Positions 4,442 through 22,449 of a stretch of 25,698 nucleotides of DNA are shown here, piece by piece; within the stretch, counting starts at the first letter, position 1, and every line of letters starts with the position of its first letter. Position numbers and translations under genes: made by a program. The notes under the pieces were generated by a model. It did not search any database, was not told the origin of the DNA, and saw nothing but the letters and a program-made list of their open reading frames with translations. The stretch is from the IMG/VR virus record IMGVR_UViG_3300028027_000216, positions 1-25,698 of that record; one strand, written 5' to 3'. The stretch comes from a virus.

Positions 4442-4742
4442 CTACAGCCTCTTCAATGCGATCAATTGCATCACGTAATGAAGATCCATGATTATTAAAT
4501 AGCTCTTCCTTAATTGTCTTAAGTTCGCCTTCAATGTAATCAAATCTTTTATTTCCCTCAGCAAGTCTTTCTATAACTCCAGGAGCATCTTCTGTTCCGT
4601 ACCAATCAGTTATGAAATGAAACCATGTTCTAAAAAGCTTAAATAATTTAGTAAGAAAATAACCAATTGCTGATGCAGCAGCAGCTAATAATACTATAAG
4701 TTCGAGGGTCATATTGATTTGCATAATAGTATAATTATACAT
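4407..4742 (-). CDS. Phage membrane protein with C-terminal coiled coil
   Basis: One N-terminal membrane segment (about residues 13-32, LELIVLLAAAASAIGYFLTK) is followed by a Trp/Phe-rich amphipathic part (FRTWFHFITDWYGTED), a helix-rich region and the segment ELFNNHGSSLRDAIDRIEEAV, seen in small actinophage membrane or holin-like proteins, ending in a basic tail (KPKRSSAPKK). The start is uncertain: ATG at 4742, 4724 and 4712 are all in frame and none has a ribosome site. A TATAAT sits right after the first ATG on this strand, so a leaderless start at 4724 (105 aa) is possible. It is the only leftward gene in the first 8 kb. Confidence 0.75.
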   Translation of the reverse strand: MYNYTIMQINMTLELIVLLAAAASAIGYFLTKLFKLFRTWFHFITDWYGTEDAPGVIERLAEGNKRFDYIEGELKTIKEELFNNHGSSLRDAIDRIEEAVAKPKRSSAPKK

Positions 4743-4758
4743 TAGTATTTATTTAAAA

Positions 4759-4767
4759 TGTGGATAA
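4759..4767 (-). promoter_or_regulatory. DnaA-box-like TTATCCACA
   Basis: TGTGGATAA on the plus strand, an exact match to the reverse of the bacterial DnaA box, in the gap before the tRNA promoter. A single site; its role is unproven. Confidence 0.35.
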
Positions 4768-4789
4768 ATATGTGTAAAACTTTTAATAG

Positions 4790-4818
4790 TTGACAAGAAT
4801 TTATTAATCGACTATAAT
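4790..4818 (+). promoter_or_regulatory. Perfect consensus promoter for tRNA-fMet
   Basis: TTGACA (4790-4795), 17-base spacer, TATAAT (4813-4818): all 12 bases consensus. The predicted start, about 4825, lies 7 bases before the tRNA. Confidence 0.85.
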
Positions 4819-4831
4819 TAATATATAGCAA

Positions 4832-4909
4832 CGCAGAGTAGAGAAGCTCGGTTATCTCGTCTGGCTCATAACCAGAAGGCCATGGGTTCGAATCCCATCT
4901 CTGCTACCA
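4832..4909 (+). tRNA. tRNA-fMet(CAU): tRNA with CAU anticodon, initiator (fMet) type
   Basis: The cloverleaf is clear. Positions 2-7 (GCAGAG) pair with CTCTGC, while base 1 (C) faces U72 and cannot pair: the hallmark of bacterial initiator tRNAs. The D arm contains AGCTCGGTTA, the anticodon loop is CTCATAA (CAU) between TCTGG and CCAGA, and the T arm is ATGGG/TTCGAAT/CCCAT. A73 and CCA are encoded. One deviation is that the three G-C pairs usual at the base of the initiator anticodon stem are reduced to two (U29-A41 replaces one). Elongator Met is less likely because of the 1-72 mismatch. Confidence 0.9.
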
Positions 4910-5137
4910 GTCTTGGAACATGACTTAAAACTGTTCTTATTTCCTAACCAATGGGTGGTTGGAAAAACGACCTGAGCAAGTCTAAGTAAACTGCTCATTT
5001 TATTTCCACTAATTAGAGTGGTAGTGTGTTAGAGTTGGTGGAAGCCTACATCGTAAGAGTAGGAATACCTGGAGTTACACAGAAGGTGTATCTATAAGCA
5101 ACAGGGCACACTATCATTCGAAAAAGAAAGGTTAACA
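4910..5137 (+). ncRNA. Candidate structured RNA / leader between tRNA-fMet and the GroES operon
   Basis: No ORF is apparent, yet the region is dense in stems: GAACA/TGTTC (about 4916-4936); TTCC-AACCA/TGGTTGGAA (4941-4964); TGAGCA/TGCTCA (4973-4997) followed by TTTTATTT, a likely terminator; CCACT/AGTGG (5006-5021); then a larger domain closed by TAGTGTG/CACACTA (5022-5028 with 5107-5113), enclosing hairpins CCTAC/GTAGG (5045-5063) and TACAC/GTGTA (5076-5090). The last domain is tRNA-like in outline but lacks a T-loop. It ends 24 bases before the ATG at 5138 and could act as a processed small RNA, a cis-regulatory leader or both. No known riboswitch consensus was recognised. Confidence 0.55.
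4971..4997 (+). repeat. Copy of the CCTGAGCA...TGCTCA hairpin element
   Basis: CCTGAGCAAG...AAACTGCTCA, the same element as the minus-strand copies at 13359, 16272, 16526 and 18860, here on the plus strand and followed by TTTTATTT. A weaker relative (GGAACATGAC...ACTGTTC) lies at 4915-4936. Confidence 0.6.
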
Positions 5138-5341
5138 ATGGCGGAACAAGATCTACACTTCTATGGCGGAGAAGATGGAAGCTTTATTAAAACATTTAAA
5201 GATAAGCAAGATGGCTTATGGTATTCGTTACATTCAGGTGCAGACAAGAAGATGTTCTTTATGGCTTTAGGCATGGAGACAGAGCAAGAAGCGTATAATT
5301 TAATGGTAGAAACATCTAAAGAAAAGAGAACAAATGATTAA
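5138..5341 (+). CDS. Hypothetical protein (67 aa)
   Basis: First gene after the structured RNA region; a ribosome site (GAAAGG, 5126-5131) precedes the ATG. The product (MAEQDLHFYGGEDGSFIKTFKDKQDGLWYSLHS... MFFMALGMETEQEAYNLMVETSKEKRTND) is small, soluble, with a likely beta-rich first half and a helical second half. No family is recognised. It overlaps the GroES-like gene by 8 bases, so the two are probably translated together. Confidence 0.8.
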   Translation: MAEQDLHFYGGEDGSFIKTFKDKQDGLWYSLHSGADKKMFFMALGMETEQEAYNLMVETSKEKRTND

Positions 5342-5627
5342 GCCAATCGGGGGACTCCTCCTTGTAAAGCGTAACCAGTCAGAAGATAAGACCACAAAAA
5401 GCGGTTTAGTTATCTCTGCTGCGTTATCAGAAAGTGATATGAAGACTGGAACTATTATCGATATGGGGCCAGGAGAGCAGAACTATATTGGTGATCTTAT
5501 TCCAATTATTGGTTTAAGCGTAGGAGATACAGTGTATTACACAGAGCGTAGTGCAACGGAGATTGAGGATGAAGACTCAACAAAGTATGATCTAATTAGC
5601 TCAAAGAATGTGCTGGCAAAGCGATGA
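5334..5627 (+). CDS. groES: GroES/Cpn10-like co-chaperonin
   Basis: Co-chaperonin lid that would cap the host GroEL ring. The 97-aa product has the GroES layout: an N-terminal strand IKPIGGLLLVKR, a mobile-loop region (NQSEDKTTKSGLVIS), the barrel core with GTIIDMGPG, VGDTVYYTERSAT and the C-terminal strand KYDLISSKNVLAKR. The usual length is about 95-100 residues, so it is complete. Phage-coded co-chaperonins such as T4 gp31 adapt host GroEL to fold capsid protein; no GroEL gene is seen here, so it presumably works with host GroEL. It is flanked by overlapping small genes in one operon (ATGA overlap with the next). Confidence 0.88.
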   Translation: MIKPIGGLLLVKRNQSEDKTTKSGLVISAALSESDMKTGTIIDMGPGEQNYIGDLIPIIGLSVGDTVYYTERSATEIEDEDSTKYDLISSKNVLAKR

Positions 5628-5785
5628 GTCAAAAGAGACAACAAAAGCTATTAAAGCGACGCAAAAACAAGGCTAAGGGTGAAGCACATTTTAAGATGAG
5701 ACAGTTTCATAGGTTTGCCAATCAGATGCTTGCTCAGATGCAGGAAGAAAATAACGAAGAAAAGAAAACCAGTGAGCCGTCGTAG
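5624..5785 (+). CDS. Small basic protein (53 aa), unknown
   Basis: The ATG overlaps the GroES stop as ATGA. The translation starts MSQKRQQKLLKRRKNKAKG, a run of Lys/Arg that could bind nucleic acid, followed by a Gln/Met-rich helix (HFKMRQFHRFANQMLAQMQ) and an acidic tail (EENNEEKKTSEPS). It has no recognised domain. The tight overlap on both sides supports it as a real operon member. The following gene starts inside its 3' end. Confidence 0.7.
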   Translation: MSQKRQQKLLKRRKNKAKGEAHFKMRQFHRFANQMLAQMQEENNEEKKTSEPS

Positions 5786-13277: not shown

Positions 13278-13278
13278 G

Positions 13279-13352
13279 CGATCCATAACGGACTTGAACC
13301 GTCGACCTCTACCGTGACAGGGTAGCGCTCTAACCAACTGAGCTAATGGACC
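13279..13352 (-). tRNA. tRNA-Asp(GUC): tRNA-Asp(GUC)
   Basis: Full cloverleaf on the minus strand: acceptor GGTCCAT/ATGGATC, D arm AGCTCAGTTGGTTAGAGC, anticodon stem CTACC/GGTAG with loop CTGTCAC (anticodon GUC), T arm ACGG/TTCAAGT with CCGT. G73 is the normal discriminator for aspartate. CCA is not encoded. It lies 3' of the DUF932 gene and may be cut out of its transcript. Confidence 0.93.
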
Positions 13353-13358
13353 AAATGG

Positions 13359-13383
13359 TGAGCAGTTTTAAATCTTGCTCAGG
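13359..13383 (-). repeat. 3'-UTR hairpin element (CCTGAGCA...TGCTCA), DUF932 gene copy
   Basis: On the minus strand CCTGAGCAAGATTTAAAACT then GCTCA, 8 bases after the stop at 13392. Shared with 16272, 16526, 18860 and plus-strand 4971; the loop is conserved as well as the stem. Confidence 0.65.
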
Positions 13384-13391
13384 ATTTTTAT

Positions 13392-14405
13392 TTATGCTAT
13401 TGCTAAAACTGATTTAACAATTTTTGCTAAGCGATTTTTTTCTGCGTTGATTTGTGCATCAAATCCACTTGCAGCAGCAAGAAGACTTTCGGTCTTTCCA
13501 CCACGAGCAGTGCGAGCCCAATCAAGGCGTTCAGTTAGTGCATTTAGTGCGCCCCAACCAGTGCCAGCAATCATCCCGTTGAATTCGCCAGTGTATAAAT
13601 CGTTGATTGTATCCACTTTTGTTTCCCACTTTTTAATTGCGCCCTTTGTATCCTTCTCAGGCTTTGGATAAGCAGCGAGAATAATATCGTTGAATTCCTT
13701 AGCATTGACTGACTTCTCATAGAGAGCGTTAGCCAACTTTGAGAATTCGTCCATATAGAAATCTGCCATTCCTAGTGCTTGACGAGCAATAGCAATCTTT
13801 CCTTCTGCAGTTTGTGTGTGGCGAATTTTGAATGATTGCTTTACGCCACCCTTTTTCTTAGAACCTAATGCAAGGTTAAGAGTGTTAGCGCACACAACAC
13901 GAACAGGTGTAATGCTTGCTTGAATTGCAATAGAGCCGTCGTGTGATGTGTTGATAAGCAAATAAGTTTTTACCTTATCATTGACACCAGTAGGGTCTAG
14001 AACAACTTCACGCTCTAGAGCAAGAGAACCGAATACCACACGACCACCCTTGATTGAACCAGCAGTTTCCCAGCGACCACCGCCGTCGAGAATGTTATCA
14101 CCAAATGCAAATAAATCTTCATTTTGCAACGGAACATAACGCTGACCAACTACACCAAGAATATCGGTTTGTGAATTGTCGGTAGGATTAGTGCGTAGGA
14201 CATACTGATAATCCTTATCAGATGTTAGGTGATTTGGAACTTCCAAATCTTCTAAACGGACATTCCATCCATTTAGATTTGCGAGAGATAGCATTTCAGA
14301 TGTATTTACTTCATTAGTAAATACAGTTCCTAAGCCGTGCCAAGCAGGTTCACGGAATGAGGCAAAAGATGTTTTGCCGTTTTGACTTTCGAGGTCGTGC
14401 GCCAT
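13392..14405 (-). CDS. DUF932 phage/plasmid-like protein (337 aa)
   Basis: Matches the phage/plasmid-like DUF932 family (TIGR03299-type) over its length: MAHDLESQNGKTSFASFREPAWHGLGT at the N-terminus, NTSEMLSLANLNGWNV, LGVVGQRYVPLQNEDLFAFGD, LLINTSHDGSIAIQASITPV, RVVCANTLNLAL and a late GTGWGALNALTERLDWAR. The length of about 340 is normal and the protein seems intact. The family is widespread in phages and plasmids of actinobacteria; its activity is not established. A ribosome site (AGAAGGAAAT) precedes the ATG. It has its own promoter (14434-14463), a CRP-like site upstream and a conserved hairpin downstream, and seems monocistronic with tRNA-Asp. Confidence 0.92.
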   Translation of the reverse strand: MAHDLESQNGKTSFASFREPAWHGLGTVFTNEVNTSEMLSLANLNGWNVRLEDLEVPNHLTSDKDYQYVLRTNPTDNSQTDILGVVGQRYVPLQNEDLFAFGDNILDGGGRWETAGSIKGGRVVFGSLALEREVVLDPTGVNDKVKTYLLINTSHDGSIAIQASITPVRVVCANTLNLALGSKKKGGVKQSFKIRHTQTAEGKIAIARQALGMADFYMDEFSKLANALYEKSVNAKEFNDIILAAYPKPEKDTKGAIKKWETKVDTINDLYTGEFNGMIAGTGWGALNALTERLDWARTARGGKTESLLAAASGFDAQINAEKNRLAKIVKSVLAIA

Positions 14406-16271: not shown

Positions 16272-16296
16272 TGAGCAGTTTTAATTCTTGCTCAGG
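16272..16296 (-). repeat. 3'-UTR hairpin element, copy after the 16313 gene
   Basis: Minus strand CCTGAGCAAGAATTAAAACT then GCTCA, 16 bases after the stop at 16313. Confidence 0.65.
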
Positions 16297-16312
16297 AATA
16301 TTGCGCTATTTT

Positions 16313-16495
16313 TTATGCGCCAATTTTTACCATAGCCCACCGCATACCATTTTCAGTTTGCAAAGATAACTTAGTTAGGTTTGGTCGGACAGAAACAATT
16401 TCACGAATTGAACCTGTAATACCTGACTTACCTGTTGTGAAAGTATCTCCAATTCGGTAGAACTTTCCTTTTGTTGTATCCATTACTGGCGACAT
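16313..16495 (-). CDS. Small SH3-like/beta-barrel protein (60 aa)
   Basis: The product MSPVMDTTKGKFYRIGDTFTTGKSGITGSIREIVSVRPNLTKLSLQTENGMRWAMVKIGA is predicted all-beta. It aligns by eye with the 17127 product (IGQTYTTARSGVEGTITEVV... RIKLDVNGQPRWTTAK) and more loosely with the 18359 product (IGKTYRSNSRHFEGEIISAE), so three paralogues with a KOW/SH3-like look lie within 2 kb. A ribosome site (GAAGGAAAT) precedes the ATG. Ligand unknown. It shares a transcript with the 16620 gene upstream. Confidence 0.75.
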   Translation of the reverse strand: MSPVMDTTKGKFYRIGDTFTTGKSGITGSIREIVSVRPNLTKLSLQTENGMRWAMVKIGA

Positions 16496-18859: not shown

Positions 18860-18884
18860 TGAGCAGTTTTAGATCGTGCTCAGG
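18860..18884 (-). repeat. 3'-UTR hairpin element, copy after the 18895 gene
   Basis: Minus strand CCTGAGCACGATCTAAAACT then GCTCA, 10 bases after the stop at 18895. One stem change (A to C in the left arm side of the loop) leaves the pairing intact. Confidence 0.65.
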
Positions 18885-18894
18885 ATTTTATTTT

Positions 18895-19110
18895 TTATTT
18901 TAGCAGAGCGTGTAATTCTGGCAGTTGACAAATTTCTTTTACACCGCAAGCATTTTGAAATTTTGCAAAATCAAAATTAGGATTATCAGCAGAAAACATT
19001 TCACCAAATTCAAAAACCAAATCTTCAAAAGTAAATTGGTCAATCAAATCTGAAAAAGATTCTAAGACATTTGAAACTTCAATAAAAGTTTTACGAGTAT
19101 AACGAGACAT
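18895..19110 (-). CDS. Hypothetical protein (71 aa)
   Basis: MSRYTRKTFIEVSNVLESFSDLIDQFTFEDLVFEFGEMFSADNPNFDFAKFQNACGVKEICQLPELHALLK: helical, acidic and Phe-rich, in the style of small phage inhibitors, but no family is recognised. The ATG overlaps the preceding stop by one base (TAATG at 19110). It is last in the 19507-18895 unit and followed by the conserved 3' hairpin. Confidence 0.77.
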   Translation of the reverse strand: MSRYTRKTFIEVSNVLESFSDLIDQFTFEDLVFEFGEMFSADNPNFDFAKFQNACGVKEICQLPELHALLK

Positions 19111-22359: not shown

Positions 22360-22434
22360 GGGGATATAGCTTAATCTGGTTAAAGCATTTGTCTTATATA
22401 CAAACGACTCTGGGTTCAAATCCCAGTATCCCTA
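22360..22434 (+). tRNA. tRNA-Ile(UAU): tRNA-Ile(UAU)
   Basis: Cloverleaf: acceptor GGGGATA/TATCCCT (G1-U72 wobble), D arm GCTT...AAGC, anticodon stem TTTGT/ACAAA with loop CTTATAT, which gives anticodon UAU for AUA codons, T arm CTGGG/TTCAAAT/CCCAG, A73. CCA is not encoded. Most bacteria decode AUA with a CAU tRNA modified by TilS; a UAU form is rarer and fits an AT-rich phage in a host with few AUA codons. Confidence 0.88.
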
Positions 22435-22449
22435 CTATTGGAGTTTAAT

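Follow-up and report, generated by a model that had tools for sequence, protein, structure and literature searches.

The RNA that follows the initiator-like tRNA in the window (the whole 25.7-kb viral contig analysed here) is a conserved structured RNA, in which two copies of a small H-type pseudoknot are followed by one three-way-junction domain (positions 4910–5119). Further copies of the pseudoknot occur elsewhere in this genome and in phages of very different kinds, mostly close behind stop codons, and behind DUF932 genes its place can be taken by strong hairpins. We put at roughly even chances the reading in which the pseudoknot shields RNA ends, chiefly the 3′ ends of mRNAs, from exonucleases, and 4910–5119 is a tRNA-linked non-coding RNA.

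Genes for GP88, DUF932, ThyX and GroES, together with an initiator-like tRNA whose C1:U72 mismatch we take to resemble the actinobacterial type, suggest that the window derives from a phage of an actinobacterium, its putative host. This tRNA-Met(cat) (4832–4909, + strand; ARAGORN and the Rfam tRNA model, with the mismatch visible in the alignment) is accompanied in the window by tRNA-Ile(tat) (22360–22435, +) and by tRNA-Asp (13278–13352, −), which stands directly behind the DUF932 gene here and recurrently in relatives. The first-pass annotation had described about 230 ORF-free bases that begin at the tRNA 3′ end under a perfect consensus promoter, and each of these points holds: TTGACA-17-TATAAT (4790–4818, +) matches the consensus at 12 of 12 positions and is kept in three relatives, the tRNA ends at 4909, and 4910–5137 is free of ORFs of at least 60 aa. 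Downstream, ORF67 (5138–5341, +; 67 aa, only weakly matched by a PHROG of unknown function) overlaps groES, and its ribosome site AAAGG (5127–5131, +), read from the sequence, lies outside the conserved fold; close relatives likewise have ORF67 between the RNA and groES. No terminator was found on the + strand of 4700–5700.

The region 4910–5137 folds with lower energy than shuffled sequence, but only moderately so (z = −2.63, with 3 of 200 shuffles folding equally well; 3′ domain z = −3.94, 1 of 200 as good; 5′ part z = −1.67), and scanning the entire window in 120-nt segments places it no higher than rank 145 of 854. Since the region is no outlier in that scan, we rejected folding energy as proof of structure and call the RNA real beyond chance because of the comparative evidence, namely conservation and double-sided changes. 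It is 98–99% identical in three relatives in which ORF67 is 82–86%, groES 87–92% and the upstream gene of 252 aa 81–91% identical, and across the window and these relatives one pair in P2 of the 3′ domain runs C–G, U–G, U–A. The scan also brought up 120-nt stretches at 14221 (−), 11521 (−), 22561 (+) and 2221 (both strands) with fold z of −5 to −6.7, stronger than the region studied here; these are possibly terminators.

Fold, covariation and spread of the pseudoknot

The consensus of the H-type pseudoknot is nnnC-C-UNNNCA-W-Gnnn-..AAAC-UGNNNA. A single C (L1) joins P1 (nnnC/Gnnn, 3–4 bp) to P2 (TNNNCA/TGNNNA, 6 bp) and crosses the latter, L2 is usually one base, and the A-rich third loop (L3), ending in AAAC, runs along P1; annotators may use nnnCCTGAGCA-n-Gnnn..AAACTGCTCA as a signature. 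The stems noted in the first pass, at least six, are present, but those at 4915–4937 and 4973–4997 are the second helices of such pseudoknots, and the 5′ stems are copies of the recurring element. PK1 (4909–4937, +), a divergent copy found by the descriptor scan and identical in three relatives, reads AGTC-TT-GGAACA-T-GACT-TAAAAC-TGTTCT; its first base is the last of the tRNA, and its L1, TT, departs from the consensus. PK2 (4969–4997, +), a canonical copy from the same scan, reads GAC-C-TGAGCA-A-GTC-TAAGTAAAC-TGCTCA, and both its P1 and P2 covary across phages. The hairpin predicted between them (4940–4965, +) is identical in relatives. Further copies lie on the − strand, between the DUF932 stop codon and tRNA-Asp (13359–13387), 13 nt 3′ of the stop of ORF 16313–16495 (16272–16299) and 8 nt 3′ of the stop of ORF 18895–19110 (18860–18886). 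The window has four exact matches to TGAGCA..AACTGCTCA; 100 shuffles have none.

Pairing in P1 was assessed on 85 distinct sites picked by a pattern blind to its variable bases. Pairs −1×1 and −2×2 are Watson–Crick in 85 of 85 sites each, against shuffled means of 37 and 22, and pair −3×3 in 61 of 85, against a mean of 28; because the next outward pair shows nothing, P1 is taken to comprise 3–4 bp. Changes in P2 are compensated (TGAGCA/TGCTCA, TGGGCA/TGCCCA, TTAGCA/TGCTAA, TAAGCA/TGCTTA, TGAACA/TGTTCA), and 114 of 115 distinct cores have C as L1. Two interleaved helices, each with covariation, place the predicted fold in the class of H-type pseudoknots. A variant that lacks the L2 base and has a longer constant stretch, GTGGCTAATAGACCTGAGCAGTCGTCTATAAACTGCTCA, is nearly unchanged in several contigs (L217:253–279, L218, L245, L252, L256, G006:25998–26023 and G078:5325–5350).

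A covariance model of the 5′ part (R2) matches at several places in related phages. The pseudoknot pattern was matched in 47 of 50 viral records, most of which had been picked for carrying one copy, and many hold several; a reversed control pattern gave 0. Across 265 kb of relatives, a free descriptor matched 74 times (29 distinct), compared with 0 in shuffles; in 1 Mb of control phages, mostly chance loci from a too-loose 15-mer pattern, it gave 2 matches against 2 in shuffles. All figures for distribution and copy number are to be read as "at least". Breadth was established by blastn and by reading the sequences: complete copies with matching P1 occur in the Paracoccus phages ParKuw1 and ParMal1, Cyanophage S-RIM4 (Synechococcus), Mycobacterium phage Labelle, crAss-like phage cr8_1 and phages of Christensenellales/Acutalibacteraceae. 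The pattern scan of bacterial genomes yielded many chance matches, and among the matches listed only P1-matching sites were kept, in Ligilactobacillus (L378), Lacticaseibacillus (L392) and a Syntrophomonadaceae MAG (L363); in these likely prophages the pseudoknot lies 5–39 nt behind one gene and 16–60 nt before a scaffold-like gene (by eye). A blastn match in Streptococcus phage Javan221 falls inside a gene and was treated as chance. In direct DNA searches, megablast found no match among phages, and blastn found only tRNA-dominated matches among phages and none among plasmids.

The three-way-junction domain

The junction (5016–5119, +) is built from a P1 of 14 bp (5016–5029/5106–5119), a P2 hairpin with a GUAA loop (5045–5063), P3 with CCUG/CAGG (5068–5075/5098–5105) and P3b (5076–5090), all on the + strand. 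P3 replaces an inner stem GTTG/CAAC of the single-sequence fold, which is broken in relatives. With a covariance model built on 5012–5123 (R1), a distant copy came up at 115 bits in the L148 contig (G014), and a pattern derived from that copy found more at 109–120 bits; the junction is now known from nine viral contigs, and the nine loci align well. Comparison with homologues, which the first-pass annotation had named as a check, supports the fold: among seven distinct sequences 99.6% of cells are paired, 10 of 32 pairs have changed on both sides across the nine loci, and the covariation score is 0.301. None of 500 shuffles reaches the pairing, double-change or covariation value, and slid structures pair at 30–47%. 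The pairing percentage leans to the fold because this alignment also served to derive the structure, and the double changes are the better evidence. Further phage records tested held no additional copy; the junction is rare, rarer than the pseudoknot.

At its 5′ edge the domain has two alternative pairings. AGTGG (5017–5021) can pair with CCACT (5006–5010) in a hairpin suggested by the fold (5006–5021, +) or can instead extend P1 by pairing with the P1 3′ strand, and the two are mutually exclusive. As CCACT, AGTGG and the P1 3′ strand are all kept in the nine loci, a strand switch between 5006–5021 and P1 is conceivable and, to judge from the conserved letters, possible. The conserved single-stranded bases of the junction, together with this alternative pairing, suggest more than passive protection.

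Placement behind stop codons and possible function

Among 132 intergenic sites, 125 lie behind a same-strand gene and about 5% follow an opposite-strand gene, single cases being subject to error since the neighbours come from a simple ORF picker. P1 starts 5–15 nt behind the stop codon in 63 of 95 cases and never at less than 5 nt, while the spacing extends past 100 nt. Downstream stand 89 same-strand genes, 24 tRNAs at 3–12 nt (22 of them tRNA-Asp) and 18 convergent genes (131 in all), and the spacing to the downstream start is broad, with a median of 68 nt. This broad spacing and the convergent neighbours tie the pseudoknot to the upstream gene. The window offers an exception, in that PK1 and PK2 stand behind a tRNA and the usual stop codon is missing.

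Just before the pseudoknot in a number of loci, a G5-loop hairpin GTAGGGGGCTAC lies at or overlaps the stop codon of a gene of about 140 aa (L462:6898–6940 (−), L464, L220, L240, L313, L323, L255, L262 and L141). The ribosome site of the same gene is mostly GAGGCCCCC(n)ATGG, complementary to the G5 loop; long-range pairing of the GGCCCCC site with the loop, in this gene upstream of the junction, is available in most cases, not all, as L141, L255, L262 and L323 have no full complement. Such complementarity suggests that the 5′ and 3′ ends of this mRNA may pair through loop and ribosome site.

The main argument on function comes from 29 DUF932 genes, which were found by protein homology alone: 23 have a pseudoknot behind them and 6 a strong hairpin. 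The replacing hairpins are terminator-like or GC-rich; three have a direct U-tract (L139, L145, L149) and two stand right before tRNA-Asp (L146, L147). From this swap we infer that the pseudoknot does the job of 3′-end hairpins. We hypothesize that a polycistronic phage transcript would be cut, for example by RNase P at a following tRNA, and that the pseudoknot would cap the resulting mRNA 3′ end as a mechanical block, keeping 3′–5′ exonucleases out of the coding region; without a U-tract, it would act as 3′-end hairpins otherwise do. In the window, transcription from the consensus promoter would yield a single RNA from which processing would release the tRNA, whereupon PK1 would guard the new end behind the tRNA and PK2 with the junction would form a stable trailer RNA ahead of the ORF67–groES mRNA. 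As PK1 begins with the final tRNA base, a trailer left by tRNA processing would start with a pseudoknot. A precedent for a knotted RNA that stops an exonuclease is the flaviviral xrRNA, which blocks bacterial RNase J1 (PMC5760640).

The nearest alternative, which we regard as unlikely, is a barrier at 5′ ends that would stop the 5′–3′ exonuclease RNase J and so protect the downstream RNA, be it a tRNA precursor, the next gene or the junction; it would leave much the same footprint. It draws on the same stop of RNase J1 by xrRNA (PMC5760640), on the position of the lactobacillus prophage copies 16–60 nt before the scaffold-like gene (by eye) and on the window itself, where a pseudoknot heads the RNA behind the tRNA. 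Against a 5′ barrier speak the tight spacing to the upstream stop rather than to the downstream start, the 18 of 131 downstream genes that are convergent, and the replacement behind DUF932 by hairpins of which some are terminator-like. Also conceivable, and distinctly unlikely, is a binding site for a phage or host protein or for the ribosome, regulating the upstream or the downstream gene, on the model of the pseudoknot of T4 gene 32, to which gp32 binds. Such a site would explain why the invariant L1 C, the AAAC loop and the UG/CA helix end exceed the needs of pairing, but invariant loops may be required by the tertiary fold alone, and the phages that carry the element have very different hosts and no common neighbour gene.

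For the RNA at 4910–5137, the first-pass annotation had considered the specific role of a leader of the groES operon, and a cis-acting leader regulating ORF67–groES would suit both its position directly 5′ of the ribosome site and the two exclusive pairings of AGTGG, as are found in switches. The other loci do not support this role. The window and its close relatives have the RNA 3′ of tRNA-fMet and 5′ of ORF67–groES, whereas six other loci have the order unrelated gene of unknown function, G-rich-loop hairpin, pseudoknot and junction, with the junction about 170 nt before a DUF932 gene, promoter-like sequence between them (by eye), and neither groES nor a tRNA adjoining. The PK2-type pseudoknot with the junction is the constant part across both contexts, and the one constant downstream gene expected of a groES riboswitch or leader is lacking. 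As the same module precedes different genes, and as the ribosome site lies outside the fold, a specific groES leader is improbable. A processed small RNA, the other role raised in the first pass, is possible, and the junction is likelier to be a stable processed RNA than a leader.

A role for the pseudoknot as a kind of intrinsic terminator is highly improbable, too. It does substitute for U-tract hairpins behind DUF932, and 16 of 73 copies have at least 5 T in the next 8 bases, but 57 of 73 have no U-tract, 24 copies stand directly before a same-direction tRNA, and in the window the stretch from the RNA to the downstream groES yielded no other strong promoter. Stimulation of recoding (readthrough or frameshifting) at the preceding stop codon is scarcely credible: the observed spacing overlaps the 5–8 nt common in known recoding pseudoknots, but frames 0 and −1 run for a median of 7–8 codons past the stop before closing, many copies are followed by a tRNA or by nothing, and the spacing can exceed 100 nt.

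Comparison with known systems

With Rfam 15 at gathering score, the whole window returned only its three tRNAs and no STAXI, GOLLD, wcaG, manA or riboswitch; at E ≤ 10, 4700–5400 gave nothing credible besides the tRNA, and the copy at 13353–13400 gave only two sub-threshold CRISPR-repeat matches. We found no description of the pseudoknot or the junction in the literature searched, which included few subscription journals. Given the strong covariation and the lack of an Rfam match, the initial impression of a structured, apparently undescribed RNA stands, and we rate the element as a new architecture among 3′-UTR and processing elements, of which an earlier description is possible.

The nearest named repeated pseudoknot is STAXI (RF01728; Weinberg 2010), which likewise recurs in mobile DNA and has no known function (PMC2864571). 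STAXI forms tandem repeats, often with UUCG tetraloops, in Enterobacteriales and near DNA-handling genes (PMC2864571), whereas the phage pseudoknot has no UUCG or other tetraloop hairpin, is mostly single, lies behind stop codons in phages of many hosts and gave no STAXI match at E ≤ 10. With terminators and 3′-stabilising hairpins it shares the place behind stop codons and is interchangeable behind DUF932, but it is a pseudoknot in place of the GC-rich hairpin with direct U-tract, a U-rich tail being present in 16 of 73 copies. GOLLD and other large phage RNAs resemble the RNA of the window as structured RNAs beside a phage tRNA gene and are far larger. In type III toxin–antitoxin RNAs, pseudoknots repeat in tandem immediately ahead of the gene for a toxin endoribonuclease, whereas our copies are mostly single and lie behind varied genes, the neighbours in the window being those for GroES, DUF932 and GP88. 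The autoregulatory pseudoknot of T4 gene 32 is likewise an H-type element of a phage mRNA, and its short first loop crosses a second helix of 6–7 bp; that pseudoknot occupies one site upstream of one gene and has a known protein ligand, while the element described here is multi-copy, lies behind stop codons and conserves other bases.

Recurrence behind stop codons of unrelated phages, near-perfect covariation and the lack of an Rfam entry point to a shared, largely unseen layer of phage RNA processing or stability, and the isolated phages Labelle, S-RIM4, ParKuw1 and ParMal1 carry the pseudoknot and make it directly testable. With the xrRNAs of flaviviruses and plant viruses the pseudoknot shares that it is a knotted viral RNA for which a mechanical stop of exonucleases is proposed. 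The phage element differs from the known xrRNA families in its plain two-helix H-type fold of about 28 nt, matched by no Rfam family, in its occurrence in DNA phages and in a predicted protection that is probably of 3′ ends. If it is an exonuclease barrier, phages would have in it a minimal module of about 28 nt for setting RNA ends. With somewhat less than even confidence, we suggest that this family, whose phages infect very different bacteria, serves viruses generally as an RNA barrier to bacterial exonucleases. As the counterpart of xrRNA in DNA phages, it would set the ends of mRNAs, tRNA precursors and non-coding RNAs, and the mobile junction would be built onto it.
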